42,741 bases of DNA from a virus, in IMG/VR virus record IMGVR_UViG_3300047319_000705, positions 1 through 42,741 of that record. One strand, given 5' to 3'. Numbering within the stretch: the first letter of the stretch is position 1; the number at the start of each line of letters is the position of its first letter. A program made the translations under genes and the position numbers. Positions 13,165 through 40,857 of the stretch are shown here, one piece after another. A model generated the notes under the pieces. The model was given only the letters and a program-made list of their open reading frames with translations. It was not told the DNA's origin and made no database searches.

Positions 13165-13383
13165 ATGCCTAGGAAAAGAAAGACCGGAAAGGCGTACCTC
13201 GCCAACCAGTCATTCGTCGTGAACCTCGACGCGAACGGTCGCGTCATGACGGACGCATCAGGGATCGACAAGAGTTTCCACGAGGGACGCACTCGCGCCT
13301 ATGAGGGCGATCCGATCGTCGAATGGGCGCCTGACTGGTTCGACGAGCTCGAGGACGTCGACATGGCTCAGTCATACGAATGA
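13165..13383 (+). CDS. Hypothetical small protein after capsid
   Basis: 72 residues, ATG with ribosome site AAGGAGAC. Basic N-terminus (MPRKRKTGKAY) and acidic C-terminus (WFDELEDVDMAQSYE). Possibly a head accessory protein because of its place after the capsid gene. The glycosyltransferase start overlaps its stop by ATGA. Confidence 0.7.
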   Translation: MPRKRKTGKAYLANQSFVVNLDANGRVMTDASGIDKSFHEGRTRAYEGDPIVEWAPDWFDELEDVDMAQSYE

Positions 13384-14615
13384 GCGATACCAACGGGACA
13401 CCCAAGCGCAAGATCCTCTGGCACTCGGTATGTCCGTGGGTTCCGACCGGGTACGGTCAGCAGACAGCCCTGTTCGCGCCACGGATCGCTGCCCTCGACA
13501 ACGTCGACCTCGCCATCTCGTCCGGGTTCGGCCTCAACGGCGGCCCGATCAAATGGGGCGGAGGCATCCACATCTACGCCGGCGAAGACTGGAACCGGAC
13601 AGCCCTCCAATGGGCAGTCCACCACGGCCACGGTGAACCCTGCACCATGATCACCCTGTTCGACGTCTGGCCGCTCGAGGTTGAGACCTTCCGGGCCATC
13701 GACCAGCAGGGACGTCTCGCATGCTGGTGCCCGGTCGACCACAACCCTGCTGTCCCGGCCGTCGTGAACTTCCTCAAAGAGACGGGGGCAGTCCCGATCG
13801 CCATGTCACGGTTCGGCGAGAGGGCGTTACGAGACGCAGGACTTGATCCTCTCTATGTTCCGCATGGAGTGGACACGACCATGTTTATGCCGCGCGACCG
13901 GACAGAAATGCGGCAGCTCCTCAACTTCCCAGAGGACGCCTTCATCGTTGGCATGGTCGCGAACAACCAGGGCCAGTCGCCGGCGCGCAAGGCTTTCAGC
14001 GAAGCGTTCCTCGCATTCTCGATCTTCCAGGAATCGCACCCGAACGCGATCCTCTACCTCCACACAGAGATGAGCGGCTTCCGCAATGGCTTGAATCTGT
14101 ACCGGATGCTCGAACGGTTCGACGTGAACGACCAGCAGGTTCGCTTCACGGAACAGGTGAATCTTGAGCACGTCTTCCCGCCCGGAGCCCTGAGCGGGCT
14201 CTACAACTCGTTCGATGTGCTCCTCAACCCGTCATACGGTGAGGGGTTCGGTATCCCGATCATCGAGGCGCAGGCTTGCGGGACGCCGGTGATCGTGACG
14301 GACTGGACCTCGATGCCGGAACTCTGCGGAGCCGGTTGGAAGGTTGGCGGTGTCCCGTGGGATCATCCGATGGCCGAGTCGTTCTGGATGAAGCCTGACG
14401 TGGACGAGATCGTGTACGCGCTCGAGAAGGCATATGGCAATCGAGACAACGATCAGTTGCGTATGCAGGCTCGCGCGTTCGCGATGAACTACGACGTAGA
14501 CGAAGTGATGACGTATTGGGTGCGCGCGCTAGACGCGATACATGCGCCGCGGGAGGTAAAGCCGATTGGCCCGAACAGGGCAATGCGGCGAGCGAAGGAG
14601 AAGGTGAAAGCCTGA
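13380..14615 (+). CDS. GT4-type glycosyltransferase (GT-B fold)
   Basis: 411 residues. N-terminal Rossmann-like half starts KILWHSVCPWVPTGYGQQ with the glycine loop for the acceptor/donor cleft. YVPHGVDTTMFMP is the usual inter-domain segment. The C-terminal half has the EX7E motif in PSYGEGFGIPIIEAQACG (about 286-303), followed by GTPVIVTDWTSMPEL. A retaining transferase using a nucleotide sugar is expected. It heads the sugar cluster directly after the capsid genes, which suggests capsid or virion glycosylation. Confidence 0.88.
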   Translation: MSDTNGTPKRKILWHSVCPWVPTGYGQQTALFAPRIAALDNVDLAISSGFGLNGGPIKWGGGIHIYAGEDWNRTALQWAVHHGHGEPCTMITLFDVWPLEVETFRAIDQQGRLACWCPVDHNPAVPAVVNFLKETGAVPIAMSRFGERALRDAGLDPLYVPHGVDTTMFMPRDRTEMRQLLNFPEDAFIVGMVANNQGQSPARKAFSEAFLAFSIFQESHPNAILYLHTEMSGFRNGLNLYRMLERFDVNDQQVRFTEQVNLEHVFPPGALSGLYNSFDVLLNPSYGEGFGIPIIEAQACGTPVIVTDWTSMPELCGAGWKVGGVPWDHPMAESFWMKPDVDEIVYALEKAYGNRDNDQLRMQARAFAMNYDVDEVMTYWVRALDAIHAPREVKPIGPNRAMRRAKEKVKA

Positions 14616-14767
14616 TGAGCAAGGAAATCTGGCTTCCGATCACGGAGACGAAGGTAACTGTCGTAGACGGCACGGTGAAGACATGGGATGAGATGAAGAT
14701 GACGCCTCACTCCGTCTCAACGCCGACAGGATTCCAGGTACCGAAGGAGGACGAGGATGCCTCTTAG
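14615..14767 (+). CDS. Hypothetical 50-residue protein
   Basis: ATG overlaps the GT4 stop as TGATG. MSKEIWLPITETKVTVVDG then an acidic tail KEDEDAS. Coupled on both sides; no family recognised. Confidence 0.6.
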   Translation: MSKEIWLPITETKVTVVDGTVKTWDEMKMTPHSVSTPTGFQVPKEDEDAS

Positions 14768-14867
14768 CATCTCAGGAACCGGCAACAACGCAGTCCCAGA
14801 CGAACTGATCGTCAGGCTCCCGAAAGGGAAGCCGCCGAAGAAGCCTCCGGTGAGCAAAGGCAAGTGA
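14757..14867 (+). CDS. Hypothetical 36-residue basic protein
   Basis: Starts ATG at 14757 with GAAGGAGG seven bases upstream, inside the end of the previous gene, and ends in a GTGA overlap with the next. The C-terminus is Lys/Pro-rich (PKGKPPKKPPVSKGK). Ribosome site and coupling support translation. Confidence 0.6.
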   Translation: MPLSISGTGNNAVPDELIVRLPKGKPPKKPPVSKGK

Positions 14868-15541
14868 AGATCGCCGTTCTTACATTGACGCGCGACCGTC
14901 TGCCTTACACGCAGGCATGCTTCGCCTCACTCCACGAGTTCGCCGGTTGCGAGTTCGACCACCACGTCCTCGACCAAGCCTCCGACGACGGCACCTTCGC
15001 ATGGCTGGACAGAGAGTTCGCCGAGAACAGGGTCCAGACGATCGTCTCGCAGCCGGAGAACGTCGGGATCTGCCGCGGCATGAACGAGCTCGTCGAACTC
15101 GCGCTCGCCAGCGCCGACTACGACCTGATCGTCAAGTACGACAACGACTGCCAACTCACCCAGCCGGACACACTCAAAGACGTCTGCTCTCTCGTCATGG
15201 AGGGAGGCTGCATCCTCTCACCCAGGATCCTCGGACTGGAGAACCCGCCGGCGTCAATGCGAGAACTCACCATCGGCAGCGAGACCATCCTTGACGTCCC
15301 GCAGATCGGCAGCATCTTCATGGCCGTCCCAGCCTGGGTCTACGACGAGTTCCGCTACGACGAATCCCAGATGCTGTTCGACGACGTCCAGCTCTGCTGG
15401 TGGTACAGACGGCAGGGCGGAACTTGTGGCTATGTAAAGAGGCTCGAGGCGTGGCATTACCTTACGACCGCCGGCCAGAAGGCCGACATCCCTGACTACT
15501 TCGTCCGCAAGGAAGCCGAGTTCGAGGCGGCGAAGGCATGA
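14864..15541 (+). CDS. GT2-family glycosyltransferase
   Basis: 225 residues, GTG start in GTGA overlap. KIAVLTLTRDRLPYTQACF opens a GT-A fold, with LDQASDDGTF and a DxD site KYDNDC near residue 91. IGSIFMAVPAWVYDEF and FDDVQLCWWYRRQGG form the acceptor side with a catalytic-type acidic pair. Inverting sugar transfer is predicted. Coupled to the deacetylase gene by ATGA. Confidence 0.85.
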   Translation: MKIAVLTLTRDRLPYTQACFASLHEFAGCEFDHHVLDQASDDGTFAWLDREFAENRVQTIVSQPENVGICRGMNELVELALASADYDLIVKYDNDCQLTQPDTLKDVCSLVMEGGCILSPRILGLENPPASMRELTIGSETILDVPQIGSIFMAVPAWVYDEFRYDESQMLFDDVQLCWWYRRQGGTCGYVKRLEAWHYLTTAGQKADIPDYFVRKEAEFEAAKA

Positions 15542-16098
15542 TCTTCGACAGCGACGACCTCTACGAAGGACACGACCGGCTCGACCTCCTTTTCCGCCTA
15601 CGCGCCATCAACCCGCTATTCCGCATGACAGCGTTCGCGATCCCGTCCAAATGTCCACGCGCCTACCTCAACAGACTCCCCGACTGGATCGAGGTTGTGC
15701 CGCACGGCTGGCTACACGGAGATCCCGGCAGCGACGGTGGTGAGTGCCGCGACTGGACCTACGACCAGATGGTCCAGGTCATCGACCAACTCGAGAAGAA
15801 CCCGCGCTGGAAACGCGGCTTCAAGGCTCCCGGCTGGATCATCAGCGACGAATGCTACGAGGCCCTCGAGGATTCCGACTGGTGGGTTGCAGACCAGCCA
15901 TACAACGACGACCGCCGACCGGAAGGACTCCGCGTTCACCGGCTTGGCGATGGAGATCACATCCATTGCCATATTCAAAATGTCTGCGGGAACGGACTTG
16001 AGGAAACCTGGGACTATCTAGTGGAGCGCGTCACGAACGCTAAGTCGTTCGAGCTCATCAGCGAGGTTGTGCAGCCCTTCGTGCGGGTGATGGCGTGA
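15538..16098 (+). CDS. NodB-like polysaccharide deacetylase
   Basis: 186 residues. MIFDSDDLYEG gives the Asp/Asp start of a NodB-type barrel, VVPHGWLHGDPG supplies an HxxxH metal pair, and GFKAPGWIISDE resembles the conserved RxPG/APGW motif. Predicted to remove acetyl groups from an N-acetyl sugar using a metal ion. Its place between glycosyltransferases suggests it edits the same glycan. The gene ends just before the pentamer array. Confidence 0.7.
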   Translation: MIFDSDDLYEGHDRLDLLFRLRAINPLFRMTAFAIPSKCPRAYLNRLPDWIEVVPHGWLHGDPGSDGGECRDWTYDQMVQVIDQLEKNPRWKRGFKAPGWIISDECYEALEDSDWWVADQPYNDDRRPEGLRVHRLGDGDHIHCHIQNVCGNGLEETWDYLVERVTNAKSFELISEVVQPFVRVMA

Positions 16099-16112
16099 GG
16101 ATGGTCGGAGGG

Positions 16113-16523
16113 GCCAGGTTTCCCCAGCCCCTCATTAGTCTTGCCTTGACCCGTCTGACCTTGCCAGGCCAGGCCCCGCCAATGCACGCGGGGATAAGCC
16201 TCGGTGAGCCCTGCCTAGCCCAGACCGTTCATGCCGTGTCTCGCCGGGACGGGTCCGGCCTAGGAGAGTCCAGTCGTGATCAGACACGTCCAGTCATGAT
16301 CAGCCGAGCCTGGTCGGGCCAGGCCAAGGAAGGACACGCCTTGACTTGTCTAGGAAAGGCCTGTCTCGCCTCGCCGGGCCATGACGAGCCGGGCCAGGAC
16401 ACGCCAAGTCTCGGTGAGACTCGCCAGGACAGGTTGGGCCACGCCACCCTCGCCAATGCCCGCCTTGGTAAGTCTTGCCCGGACTCGTCTCGCCTGGACT
16501 CGCCAGGTCCGACCTCGCCTAGG
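16113..16523. repeat. GNC pentamer-periodic array
   Basis: The triplet GNC recurs at a strict 5-bp step. From 16143 to 16450 there are 62 registers in one phase: 58 have G at the first position and 48 are exact GNC. A one-base phase slip follows near 16446-16452, and 16 more registers continue to about 16523 with 14 starting in G. The other bases vary, so the units are not identical copies. GNC is its own reverse complement, so the pattern looks the same on both strands. A local 20-bp duplication (CCAGTC-N-TGATCAG) is at 16270-16302. The array fills the gap between a plus-strand and a minus-strand gene that converge on it. Confidence 0.92.
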
Positions 16524-16526
16524 TTG

Positions 16527-17297
16527 TTACAGCGCCTTCTCAACGCGCTTCTTGCGCTCCTTCCCATTCGGATGATTCAAGCCATGCGTCAAGTCCTGAG
16601 ACTCGATCGCACTGACCCCGGTCGCGGCCGCCATCTTCGATCGCACCGCATCCAACACGTCCGGAGCGATGAAGTCGGCAGGATCACCGATCAACTCCGC
16701 CGAACCCTTGAACCGGCCGAACCGTGGCCGAGCATCCCCGAGACCCTTGTACATGCCGGCCTCCCTCGCGATCAGATCGACCGTATCAGGATCGAGGATC
16801 GTCAGGTCGAGTTCCAACTCGAGGCTGACGTTCCAGTCCGTGAAGCAGGGGCGGGTACGGATGACGCGGCTCTGCCCGACGCTGACTCCCTTGCGGGAAT
16901 GGAACAGGCCGGACTTCCAGAGCTCGTCCGCCGACTTCGGACCCTCGTAGCCGAGCAACGTCTCCTCTTCGACGGGAACGATTCCCGCGACGATGTGCTT
17001 GCCCAGCTTGTGCCGGGTGGCTCCCTCTTGGAGACATCGGATGATGTTCCAGGTCGGGATGTACGGGTCGGACTGCTCGCCGGTCGGTCCAGTATCGACG
17101 AGCCAGTAGCCGCCGCCGACGAACTCGCGGCGAGCGACCTCCTCATGGTCCCGTTCGGTCTTCTTCCGTTTCCCTGTCAACTCCGCGAGCGACTTGGTGT
17201 ACAGGTCGAGAGGGTCTGCGAGCCGCTCGTTGTGCATGAGCAGCGGACTACCGTTCACGGCGGATGCGCCGTCGAACGTGACACGGATACGTGCCAT
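16527..17297 (-). CDS. Unrecognised minus-strand protein beside pentamer array; RAMP-like features
   Basis: 256 residues on the minus strand, one of only two such genes here. ATG with ribosome site GAGGTT. N-terminal strand IRVTFDG then PLLMHN; a basic helix TGKRKKTERDHEEVARREF (~41-59); YIPTWNIIRCLQEGA (~79-93); a beta-rich middle with SRVIRTRPCF; a Gly-rich GLGDARPRFGRF (~185-196); a Lys/Arg-rich C-terminus. The order strand, 'IPxxxIxxxLxxGA' helix and Gly-rich motif is reminiscent of RAMP/Cas7-like RNA-binding folds. That is a weak pattern match, not a detected homology. It may bind the adjacent array or its RNA. No catalytic site seen. Confidence 0.85.
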   Translation of the reverse strand: MARIRVTFDGASAVNGSPLLMHNERLADPLDLYTKSLAELTGKRKKTERDHEEVARREFVGGGYWLVDTGPTGEQSDPYIPTWNIIRCLQEGATRHKLGKHIVAGIVPVEEETLLGYEGPKSADELWKSGLFHSRKGVSVGQSRVIRTRPCFTDWNVSLELELDLTILDPDTVDLIAREAGMYKGLGDARPRFGRFKGSAELIGDPADFIAPDVLDAVRSKMAAATGVSAIESQDLTHGLNHPNGKERKKRVEKAL

Positions 17298-17339
17298 GGT
17301 CTAACCTCAGTTCTGCCGGTGGCTGTGTCTGTAGGGGAT

Positions 17340-17350
17340 CCGGTCACCGG
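17340..17350. promoter_or_regulatory. Perfect 11-bp palindrome CCGGTCACCGG
   Basis: CCGGT-C-ACCGG lies between the divergent gene starts, in the leader of the minus-strand gene. Could be a second operator site. Palindromy is the only evidence. Confidence 0.3.
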
Positions 17351-17371
17351 CGTTTCCCGGTTCCGCGGCGG

Positions 17372-17401
17372 ACACTACAACAATGTAGGCGCGCTAGTCA
17401 A
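17372..17401 (-). promoter_or_regulatory. Minus-strand promoter with overlapping operator-like repeat
   Basis: Read on the minus strand: -35 TTGACT (17401-17396), 18-bp spacer, -10 TAGTGT (17377-17372), about 75 bp before the minus-strand gene. A perfect inverted repeat CTACA-ACAA-TGTAG (17375-17388) overlaps the -10 and spacer, as expected for a repressor site. This gives the lone minus-strand gene its own controlled transcription. Confidence 0.55.
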
Positions 17402-17410
17402 GGGTGTCGC

Positions 17411-17611
17411 GTGAAAGACTCAATGCGGCTACATGGGATTCGCAGCGAGGTCAATCTTCACGCGCGCCAGCTTTCGCCGATGACGCCCGATGAGCGCCAG
17501 AACTATCTTGACTCGCTGATCGGGCCGAAGACGGTGAGCGCCAGTGAAGCTGACATGCGCGCCATGCTTATGACGCGATTGAGGGAGTTGAGCCTGTGGC
17601 CGCCGCGCTGA
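17411..17611 (+). CDS. Hypothetical 66-residue protein
   Basis: GTG at 17411 is chosen; an ATG at 17423 is in frame and no ribosome site decides. Helical, charged sequence (LHARQLSPMTPDERQNYLD; RAMLMTRLRELSLW). It is the first plus-strand gene after the minus-strand unit and overlaps the methyltransferase start by 16 bases. No family recognised. Confidence 0.55.
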   Translation: MKDSMRLHGIRSEVNLHARQLSPMTPDERQNYLDSLIGPKTVSASEADMRAMLMTRLRELSLWPPR

Positions 17612-18129
17612 CAGCTAGCCGCCTCAACTTCGCCTGCGGGGATACGATCTGGTCTGGGTTCGACAACAGCGACATCGCAGGCGAAGTTGGCAGCACCTAT
17701 CTCGACCTCGAAGACTTCCCCTACCGCTATGAGGACGACTCGGCAGAGGTCATCATGATGTCGCATGCCTTGTTCGTCGGAGACAAGGGCGTGCCGGCGC
17801 ATCCTGACTTCGCGCCGATCATGGCCGAGTGTTACCGCATCCTCCAGACCGGCGGATGGCTGCGGATCGACGACAACCCGTTCCGCTGCTATCTCGACGG
17901 AGACGTCTATCCCGACGACGAGCTAGCGCGCGAGCAGACCGCGCAGTTTCCGCCGCAACTGAAAATTCCGCGCGAGACGCTACGCGAGCTTCTCCGAGAC
18001 GCAGGCTTCAAGCGAGTGGAGGATGTGCCGCAAGGGATGACGCTGATCCCCGGAGACGCTGAGCTCCACCAAGCGATTATCGGAAACTGCCTGACGCACG
18101 TCTCGTTCACGATCGAAGCGCAGAAATGA
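17596..18129 (+). CDS. Class I SAM-dependent methyltransferase-like protein
   Basis: 177 residues, GTG start. LNFACGDTIWSGFDNSDI resembles the SAM-binding loop and first acidic residue, then DLEDFPYRYEDDSAEVIMMSHAL matches motif II-IV of small class I methyltransferases. AECYRILQTGGWLRIDDNP is the usual post-motif strand. Probably methylates a sugar or sugar precursor in the surrounding cluster. ATGA overlap with the next glycosyltransferase. Confidence 0.75.
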   Translation: MAAALTASRLNFACGDTIWSGFDNSDIAGEVGSTYLDLEDFPYRYEDDSAEVIMMSHALFVGDKGVPAHPDFAPIMAECYRILQTGGWLRIDDNPFRCYLDGDVYPDDELAREQTAQFPPQLKIPRETLRELLRDAGFKRVEDVPQGMTLIPGDAELHQAIIGNCLTHVSFTIEAQK

Positions 18130-18803
18130 CGCAGCTCGACATCGTCCTCCTCCAATGCGGCCTCTCCGACCTCACCGTCCGCTGCCTCCACAGCATCCCA
18201 CGGGACTTCCGCATCATCCTCGTCGACAACGGCAGCCCGGAAGCCGATATCGAGCACGTTCGCAAGGAGCTGCTTCCGGGCGACTCGATGATCCTGCTCC
18301 CCGAGAACTATGGGTTCGCCAAGGCCATGAACATCGGTATCGAGAGCACCACAGCACCGTTCATCTGCATCCTCAACAACGACACCGTCGCCGCCGACGA
18401 CGCCTTCGACAAGATGCTCTACTACTTCGGCATCGACAAGAGCCTCGGCATCGTCGGGCCGCGCACCAACCGCTGCGAATCCGAACAGCGCGCAGACGGT
18501 CCCGGCCACCAGACCTTGTTCTACACGAACGGATTGCTCGCATTCTTCTGCGCGATCGTCCGCCGCGAGGCACTCGAAGAGGTTGGACCGTTGAGCGAGG
18601 AGTACGGCCTCGGCTATGGAGAGGACGACGACTACTGCATCAGGATGCGTCAGGCCGGCTGGAAGCTGGGAATCGCGAACGACGCCTGGGTCGACCACGA
18701 CCACCACGCCACCTATCGTGTGACCATCGGCGAGGAAGGCATGGAACGCGAAGGCCAGCAGGGACTCGCCCTCTTGCGCGAGAAATACGGGGCTGTCGTA
18801 TGA
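18126..18803 (+). CDS. GT2-family glycosyltransferase (rhamnosyltransferase-like)
   Basis: 225 residues. DIVLLQCGLSDLTVRCLHSI, then IILVDNGSPEAD, PENYGFAKAMNIGIE and the DxD-like ICILNNDTVAADD (~81-90) are classic for the WcaA/rhamnosyltransferase GT2 group. GYGEDDDYCIRMRQAGWKLG carries the catalytic ED and HDHH follows. Predicted inverting sugar transfer. Coupled by ATGA to the following methyltransferase. Confidence 0.88.
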   Translation: MTQLDIVLLQCGLSDLTVRCLHSIPRDFRIILVDNGSPEADIEHVRKELLPGDSMILLPENYGFAKAMNIGIESTTAPFICILNNDTVAADDAFDKMLYYFGIDKSLGIVGPRTNRCESEQRADGPGHQTLFYTNGLLAFFCAIVRREALEEVGPLSEEYGLGYGEDDDYCIRMRQAGWKLGIANDAWVDHDHHATYRVTIGEEGMEREGQQGLALLREKYGAVV

Positions 18804-19396
18804 CCGCTGTTGCGACCACCAGGGGCAAGGAGATTGCGGAGTGGGCGATCCGTGCTGACGCCTCACAGAAGATGGACGAGTTCGAGCATCTCGTCGATCT
18901 GGTGGTGGAGCTCGAGCCGAAGGTGATCCTTGAGATCGGCAGCAAATGCGGTGGTTCGCTGCTCGCATGGCGTCTCGCAGCTCCCGACGCGAAGATCATC
19001 AGCGTCAGCCTCACCGATGGTCCGTTCGGCGGTGGAAGCGTTGGGGGTCAAACGATCGAGGGAGAGATCGAACATTGGCTCAACGTGAACTCTCATGAGC
19101 AGAGCACGCTGACCACGGTCATGAAGATCCTCCGCAATGAACCGGTCGACTTTCTCTTCATCGACGGAGACCACACCTACGAAGGCGTCCTCCAAGACTT
19201 CGCGATGTATAGCTGGCTCGTCAGAAGGGGTGGCCTGATCGCCTTCCACGACATCCTGCCGCATCCCACCGAGACCGGTGTGTTCGTGAGGAAGCTGTGG
19301 AAGCAGTTGACGCCGAGATTCGAGACGCAAGAGTTCTTGGGTGACGAGCGACGTGACATGGAATTGTGGGGCGGGATCGGGGTTATTACGTGGTGA
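18800..19396 (+). CDS. Class I methyltransferase (CmcI/Methyltransf_24-like)
   Basis: 198 residues. ILEIGSKCGGSLLAWRLA (~43-60) is the SAM loop; VDFLFIDGDHTYEGVLQDF (~116-134) and GGLIAFHDILPHP hold the metal/acidic residues typical of the CmcI-like group that methylates sugars and natural products. The ATG at 18800 overlaps the previous stop. Together with its neighbour it suggests an O-methylated glycan. Confidence 0.82.
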   Translation: MTAVATTRGKEIAEWAIRADASQKMDEFEHLVDLVVELEPKVILEIGSKCGGSLLAWRLAAPDAKIISVSLTDGPFGGGSVGGQTIEGEIEHWLNVNSHEQSTLTTVMKILRNEPVDFLFIDGDHTYEGVLQDFAMYSWLVRRGGLIAFHDILPHPTETGVFVRKLWKQLTPRFETQEFLGDERRDMELWGGIGVITW

Positions 19397-20508
19397 CGAT
19401 AAGCGTGATAATCCCGACCATCGGACGCGACTCGCTGGCCGCCGCGAAAGAATCATGTGCCGGCGCTGACGAGATCATCATCATCGAGAACCATGATGGA
19501 GACCACGGCTACTCGGCGCGCACGAGAGGCATCCAGAAGGCCACAGGAAGCCATCTGGCGTTCCTCGACGACGACGACGTCTACACGGCAGGGACGATCG
19601 AGTTGATGCGTGAGGCAGCTTGTGACGTGCCGGTCATCTTCAAGATGGACCACCACCAGCATGGAGTCATGTGGCGTCATCCGTGGCTCGAGTTCGGCAA
19701 CGTCGGCACTCCTATGTTCCTTGTGCCGAACCGGCCAGAGGAGTTGGGCGAATGGAAGGAGCACGCGCCAGGGTTCGCGGAGCCGGGCGGCGACTTCTCG
19801 TTCATCAGCGGATGCGTCGAGAAGATGGGCGGACCCGAGTGGCGCGACGAGATCATCTGCATGGTCAGGCCCGACTTCCCGACGATCGCGATCGTGACTC
19901 CCTGGCTGAACGGACTCGAGTTCGCGGACGCCTATTTCGCAGCCGTGAACCGTCGCAGTCCAAGAGACGAGGTCATCGTCGTGGACGATGGCTCCAACCA
20001 GCATCTCCCGTTCGCGCAGATCCGTAACGACGAGTCGACAGGGTTCGGCTCGACATGCAACCAGGGGCTACGAGCAGCCAAGTCCGACATCGTCTTGTTC
20101 CTCAACAACGATGTGGTGGCGCGAGAATCGCGCTGGCTCGAGCCGATCCGCGAAGCCATAGAGCCGGGAGTCCTTGTCGGAGCCCAGTTGCGCGACGACC
20201 CGCACGGCTCAGTCGATGGAACACCGTTGCCTTACCTGGACGGATGGTGCCTCGCCGGCATGAGAGACGACCTCCTAGAGATCGGCGGCTTCGACGAGGA
20301 CTTCCAGCCGCCCGCCTATTACGAGGACAACGACCTTTGCCTCCGTGCCCGTATGGCAGGCATGACTCTCCGAGAGGTGCGCGTACCACTCCACCACATC
20401 CGTAACGGAACCATGAAACCCGACGACCCGAAGGTTCGCGCCGCGACGTTGGCGAACCGGGAACGGTTCATCGCTCGAGCGAGGGAGGCGCTGACTCTTG
20501 CCTACTAA
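19393..20508 (+). CDS. Double-domain GT2 glycosyltransferase
   Basis: 371 residues with two GT-A modules. Module 1 (1-~150) begins TISVIIPTIGRDS and has FLDDDDVYTAGTIE. Module 2 (~155-371) begins TIAIVTPWLNGLEFADAYF, with VIVVDDGSN, GFGSTCNQGLRAAKSDIVLFLNNDV and YYEDNDLCLRARMAG. Tandem GT2 enzymes often add two alternating sugars or act processively. The start is GTG in a GTGA overlap; a more upstream start at 19366 is less likely. It is the last sugar gene before the connectors. Confidence 0.86.
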   Translation: MTISVIIPTIGRDSLAAAKESCAGADEIIIIENHDGDHGYSARTRGIQKATGSHLAFLDDDDVYTAGTIELMREAACDVPVIFKMDHHQHGVMWRHPWLEFGNVGTPMFLVPNRPEELGEWKEHAPGFAEPGGDFSFISGCVEKMGGPEWRDEIICMVRPDFPTIAIVTPWLNGLEFADAYFAAVNRRSPRDEVIVVDDGSNQHLPFAQIRNDESTGFGSTCNQGLRAAKSDIVLFLNNDVVARESRWLEPIREAIEPGVLVGAQLRDDPHGSVDGTPLPYLDGWCLAGMRDDLLEIGGFDEDFQPPAYYEDNDLCLRARMAGMTLREVRVPLHHIRNGTMKPDDPKVRAATLANRERFIARAREALTLAY

Positions 20509-40783: not shown

Positions 40784-40857
40784 TCCAAACCTAGGTTGTC
40801 CTCTGAGTCAAACCTAGGCTTGTCTCTGATGCCAAACCTAGGCCGTCCTCTGATGGA
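40746..40857 (+). repeat. AACCTAG iterons
   Basis: AACCTAG begins at 40749, 40788, 40811 and 40835 (spacing 39, 23, 24). The last three share AAACCTAGG-N2-4-GTC-TCTGA, giving degenerate repeats of about 23-24 bp. An inverted match, GTGAACCTAGAC to GTCTAGGTTCAC, is at 41070-41081. Iterons of this size near a RepA-like gene are typical initiator-binding sites. Confidence 0.7.

Follow-up and report, generated by a model that had tools for sequence, protein, structure and literature searches.

VIPR systems, described in a 2026 preprint (PMC13142463), combine a RAMP protein with RNAs of alternating GGY and NN units, in which the NN dinucleotides pair with DNA and the one base skipped between them is usually the wobble base of a codon. 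The text of that preprint gives these RNAs (vrRNAs) 9 to 16 repeats and a structured 3' tail, names satellites and prophages as targets, and treats the accessory gene vap as typical, although not universal. Here, we analyzed the window, i.e., the whole stretch of 42,741 nucleotides that makes up IMG/VR virus record IMGVR_UViG_3300047319_000705. A cassette inserted next to its gene P0002 (Table 1) is very probably a VIPR locus, one guide of which (guide E) is aimed at the P0002 of sister phages that lack the cassette, while the carrier's own, physically linked copy is altered.

Table 1. Features of the VIPR locus and its surroundings in the window
Feature	Position	Strand	Description
P0002	15538..16098	+	Phage gene adjoining the array; guide E targets its sister-phage homologues
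Own-copy site corresponding to the target	15954..15992	+	Recoded, HIHCHIQNVCGN instead of HVHTHIQDWGSN; 7/14 NN match
VIPR cassette	16099..17414		1,316-bp insertion at the exact junction of P0002 with the following gene; each end carries GCGTGA
Hairpin immediately 3' of the array	16108..16133	-	11-bp stem, 4-nt loop; -22.7 kcal/mol, z = -2.8
vrRNA array	16138..16522	-	77 tandem 5-nt units, scaffold GNC plus variable NN; from HMM and unit list
Guide E (units 40-52)	16266..16327	-	13 NN: TT CT CC CA TC TG AT TG GT TG AC TG TC
vipr gene (P0001, 256 aa)	16527..17297	-	RAMP/Cas7-like, glycine-rich loop GLGDARPRFGRF; phrog_4652
Candidate promoter of vipr and array	17372..17401	-	TTGACT-N18-TAGTGT, read by eye

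Run over the window, a 5-state HMM reported a single array with a score of 119 and one slip, against peaks of 9.7 to 11.3 in shuffles of the window (n = 3). In the register 16143-16450, G occupies position 1 in 58 of 62 units and C position 3 in 51 of 62; the slip consists of one 4-nt unit (16448-16451), past which the register is back, with G and C each found in 13 of 15 units. The autocorrelation of the array amounts to 0.48 to 0.49 at lags 5, 10, 15, and 20, compared to a lag-5 baseline of 0.253 in the window (mean of 200-bp windows; sd, 0.037). The 5-bp GNC periodicity that an earlier note on this DNA had described, with about 76 units, a one-base slip, and a resuming pattern, is thus real, with about 77 units by our count, and the lag-5 check proposed there came out in its favor when run on the window. 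Two details needed adjustment: the span 16113-16523 is slightly too long on its left, as positions 16099-16137 are the hairpin region and the array runs from 16138; and the pattern deserves the word “strict” only with some indulgence, as exact GNC is found in about 78% of the window's triplets and about 22% deviate.

On the minus strand, which is also that of vipr, the triplets of the 77 units are GGC in 32 cases, GAC in 15, GTC in 12, and GCC in 1, a middle-base bias as would be expected of a relaxed GGY; the published scaffold, GGY, accounts for 44% of the window's units. Although GNC is self-complementary, this bias toward GGC over GCC means that the triplet is not symmetric, and mutual pairing of GNC segments, proposed earlier, is not supported as the purpose of the array. 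The near relatives carry their arrays on the vipr strand as well, with a scaffold that grades from GNC to GGY. When the scaffold of the window was compared to that of the relative L128, the free middle base was less conserved than the NN (19/29 versus 51/58; p = 0.02), and over the whole scaffold NN conservation reached no significance (p = 0.48). The view that the constraint acts on a pattern, rather than the array being a product of slippage, is supported, with the variable bases providing guide information. A tandem repeat finder flagged just one 31-bp stretch of the array, and an Rfam search returned no match. What adjoins vipr is best described as a tandem array of pentamers related to GGY/NN, the feature found in VIPR; direct repeats with unique spacers, as in CRISPR, were not found, the units being five bases long. 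We agree with the earlier note that the array represents neither CRISPR repeats nor iterons nor coding sequence. It is true that one plus-strand frame stays open through 16095-17414, but the idea that the array encodes a repetitive protein has next to no probability, given that its period of 5 is not a multiple of 3 and that array lengths (57 units in L126 and L128 versus about 77 to 78 in the window), open frames, and stop counts differ between relatives. The sequence of the hairpin that follows the array is conserved in L125, L126, and L128; it is a candidate terminator or vrRNA tail.

The product of the neighboring gene, P0001, matched one solved chain, 36pp_D (“SUSP1 Vipr protein”), with an E value of 1.5e-20 over residues 17 to 197. 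Among solved structures, the folds closest to its AF2 model (built from a 60-sequence alignment; pLDDT, 92.4) are Csm3/Cas7 subunits of CRISPR effectors, with a Foldseek E of 2.8e-5, the best such chain reaching a Z of 10.3 over 175 residues with an rmsd of 4.9. Within the glycine-rich loop, R190 and G194 are invariant in 60 relatives, and G181, G185, and G187 are nearly so. Searches of NCBIfam and PADLOC gave no match for P0001, and no relatives were found in bacterial genomes searched with it as query. The candidate promoter, only tentatively assigned to vipr and the array, is identical in L126 and L128 and was not reported by a consensus promoter scan. In the sister phages L142, L143, L144, and L146, whose four junctions were compared, the insertion site is empty and P0002 overlaps or directly abuts the next gene. 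The cassette holds vipr and the array and nothing else in terms of genes: neither a vap accessory gene nor a nuclease gene was found within it, and since vipr is its sole gene, it supplies no nuclease. A scan of seven neighboring proteins revealed no cas family of Pfam or PHROG.

The capsid protein of the window phage is nearest to that of Rhodococcus phage REQ1 (35%) and also to those of Gordonia and Mycobacterium phages, and the phage also encodes a transglycosylase domain (PF06737); the host is likely actinobacterial. Glycosyltransferase and methyltransferase genes form a cluster at 13380-20508, between the capsid gene and the downstream genes, and the VIPR cassette sits inside it. Elsewhere in the window, an 11-bp motif (GACCACTTCCC) that recurs several times at 121-260, upstream of the first genes, has an iteron-like appearance, and a 24-bp repeat that includes CCTAGG (CCAAACCTAGGCTTGTCCTCTGATG) occurs three times in the intergenic region 40785-40855.

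Scanning viral contigs for eleven GNC units, with no other criterion, yielded at least 120 stretches. A member of the P0001 family, as detected with an iterative profile, is present at 84 of the 120 pattern loci listed, in most cases no more than 20 bp away from the array, and the G-rich array strand is the vipr strand in 95 of 104 arrays among the listed loci. This search, with its listing of neighboring genes, had been suggested in the earlier note, and its outcome bears out two expectations recorded there, namely, that similar arrays adjoin related genes in other phages and that array and adjacent protein form a two-part system. In the DNA fetched for the other 36 of the 120 listed loci (e.g., L074, with 28% GC), no vipr family member was found; these loci could represent truncated contigs, unrelated repeats, or distant types of Vipr. 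Very long period-5 arrays were also seen beside vipr homologues, one with about 500 units and 44 slips (L079:2038-4495) and one of 1.6 kb with 5 slips (L031:7607-9177), both far exceeding the 9- to 16-unit RNAs given in the text of PMC13142463. In the array L141:2640-3025, near-identical stretches of about 100 bp are split by a non-GNC insert (GGGACGCCCTTTT-like); such inserts are possibly tails between guides.

Some units of the array lack the leading G and feature TCC, ACC, or ATC triplets in register, which we refer to as punctuation. In relatives, punctuation is spaced by 12, 12, 14, and 14 units (L138) or by 14, 13, and 13 units (L135), and over all arrays a spacing of 11 to 14 units is modestly enriched (34 seen versus about 19 expected). 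In the window, it splits the array into segments of about 11 to 13 units, i.e., about six guides, of which guide E comprises 13 units bounded by two TCC triplets; a hairpin is found at the end of the array only. A target was found for one of the six or so guides, guide E. Patterns of 18 fixed bases for guides A, C, F, and G, which served as controls, gave 2, 1, 0, and 0 exact matches in viral contigs, all unrelated to the window phage; the guide C pattern had no match in genomes, and in sister phages guide F found no match even when 3 mismatches were tolerated. A first all-against-all exact search among the pattern loci showed no excess of the 1-nt skip over controls, probably because these loci held no sister phages, and self near-matches across other loci were mildly enriched for the 1-nt skip (39 versus 18 to 23 in controls). 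Reading the whole array as one coded message, a 78-residue decode in both directions, was also tried and rejected, as tblastn against phages returned nothing convincing.

Nine NN of units 42-50, read on the minus strand with a 1-nt skip, matched five viral contigs, and every match lies in a P0002 homologue. The match of guide E extends to 13 of 13 NN in L146 and 12 of 13 in L142 to L145, and it stops at the punctuation. The skipped nucleotide falls on the codon wobble position, which is the reading described for VIPR, and skips of 0, 2, or 3 nt gave at most 8 of 12 over the sister-phage contigs. The array of L128 holds a variant of guide E in which one unit is changed (CT to GA) and which fits L143 to L145 in 14 of 14 NN, whereas at this unit the guide of the window fits L146 and L142. 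Among the four distinct target alleles, the skipped wobble bases vary at 11 of 14 positions, but the NN at only 2 of 14. All five target contigs are colinear with the window phage, at about 71 to 94% nucleotide identity by block, and a search for vipr in these contigs, which are fragments of the phages in question, found none. Alternatively, the array could act as a single giant VIPR guide or scaffold, with the match of units 40-52 being a relic or an accident. The array is indeed continuous over its 77 units, and a target was found for a single segment only, but 13 consecutive NN confined by punctuation, matches in five contigs, a variant in a sister array, a recoded own copy, and the uninformative whole-array peptide make this reading improbable. 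More improbable still is a structure at the DNA level, e.g., a protein-binding or replication array with one GNC per half turn: it would agree with the intergenic position and with a spacing of 5 bp, which is half a helical turn, but 1-nt slips and punctuation are tolerated, the triplet bias tracks the vipr strand across the listed loci, and the NN carry target information, so that the target matches already refute it as a full account.

At the target site, the carrier's own copy of P0002 is recoded (Table 1), and the P0002 of L128 likewise fits L128's own guide in only 7 of 14 NN. Differences at codon positions 1 and 2 are concentrated in the target, both between the window phage and L144 (9/26 versus 17/348 elsewhere; p = 1.3e-5) and between L128 and L146 (8/26 versus 22/348 elsewhere; p = 4e-4). 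Outside its 3' part, P0002 of the window phage is closest to L144 and that of L128 to L146, while in the 3' part the nearest match of the window phage is L128 and vice versa. This switch in grouping suggests that the recoded tract moved along with the cassette. It is tempting to speculate that the cassette links a weapon to its immunity, with the guide hitting the allele of cassette-free neighbors and the recoded target co-traveling by homologous recombination, which would amount to a spread resembling that of drives or toxin-antidote pairs; we offer this as a tentative possibility. A variant of this thought, which we consider rather unlikely, is that the cassette is mainly selfish and drive-like, the guide and the recoded target favoring recombinants that gain the cassette rather than benefiting the phage. 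The exactness of the insertion, the GCGTGA at either end, the empty site in sisters, and the recoded 3' tract shared by the window phage and L128, although their 5' parts group otherwise, would fit such an element, but the cassette contains no nuclease, and benefit to the phage and benefit to the cassette are inseparable by sequence alone. It is compatible with our preferred explanation, a VIPR locus aimed at cassette-less sisters, and differs from it in who benefits.

A related arrangement was seen in L133, whose vipr is 46% identical. Its array contains a 13-NN guide (L133:5406-5446) that matches the terminase gene of L133 itself in 11 of 13 NN. A scan of the collection with nine NN of this guide retrieved one contig, L167, a sister of L133 (82.8 to 84.3% identical), the terminase of which matches the guide in 13 of 13 NN and in which a search for vipr found none. 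The changes in L133's own terminase are a replacement of TCN by AGT, still encoding serine, and an alanine-to-serine substitution. The code would overlook a change at the third codon position, whereas it does register a TCN-to-AGY serine switch. In the L133 terminase, divergence at the target does not clearly exceed that of the remaining gene (4/26 versus 88/1056).

Taken as a mechanism, the phage would make a small Cas7-like Vipr and, from the same strand with the array downstream, a long GNC-NN RNA. By analogy with SUSP1, Vipr subunits would bind this vrRNA pentamer by pentamer, the GNC triplet serving to hold Vipr while both N bases pair with target DNA, one target base being skipped between pairs. 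We infer that the array is transcribed, processed, bound by Vipr, and brought onto DNA as several guides of about 11 to 13 units each, split by the in-register TCC and ACC triplets. Guide E would then recognize the P0002 allele of sister phages without the cassette. The outcome of such binding would be repression, inferred by analogy from the text of PMC13142463; its likely effect would be that, during coinfection or lysogeny, a competing sister phage is prevented from transcribing this operon. The carrier would be spared by the alteration of its own P0002 at the target, and altered target and cassette, being physically linked, appear to move together.

Judged from the sequences, the published rules of the noncontiguous code also apply in a distant, actinobacteriophage-like group, whose scaffold is looser. 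On this evidence, a phage can turn VIPR against its own closest relatives, with self spared through recoding of a linked target, in one case (L133) by a TCN-to-AGY codon switch, such a change of serine codon class being among the few synonymous changes that the VIPR code cannot forgive. Self/non-self discrimination and drive-like spread can thereby be put to a direct test, in a system that is considered older than CRISPR. Relative to the text of the preprint, the supplement of which may hold parts of this, the relaxed GNC scaffold, the 77-unit multiguide array, the targeting of sister phages, and the cassette-linked recoded own target may be new.

The closest described system, as far as the text of PMC13142463 goes, is the type II VIPR of Escherichia phage SUSP1 (PDB accession no. 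36pp), with which the window shares a homologous Vipr, an array of pentamers adjoining its gene, NN dinucleotides as the informative bases, a 1-nt skip that coincides with the wobble base, and a target in a competing mobile element. In contrast to SUSP1, with its separate 9- to 16-unit RNAs and long tails, the window has 77 units in one run, a GNC scaffold whose middle base is free, a cassette lacking vap, and a target that is the sister phages' allele of a neighboring gene, with the own copy recoded. The likeness to Class 1 CRISPR effectors (the Csm3/Cas7 backbone of types III and VII) lies in the RAMP fold, the glycine-rich loop, and subunits repeating along a guide RNA; unlike them, the cassette has no repeats, spacers, or other cas genes, and its reading is gapped, two bases at a time. 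Phage homing elements and immunity-linked exclusion modules sit beside the site that they recognize, and their presence goes with loss of that site. The cassette of the window resembles these modules in adjoining the recognized site and in being paired with its loss, but here recognition falls to an array of guide RNA, the cassette encodes no nuclease, and the target is lost by recoding rather than by insertion.
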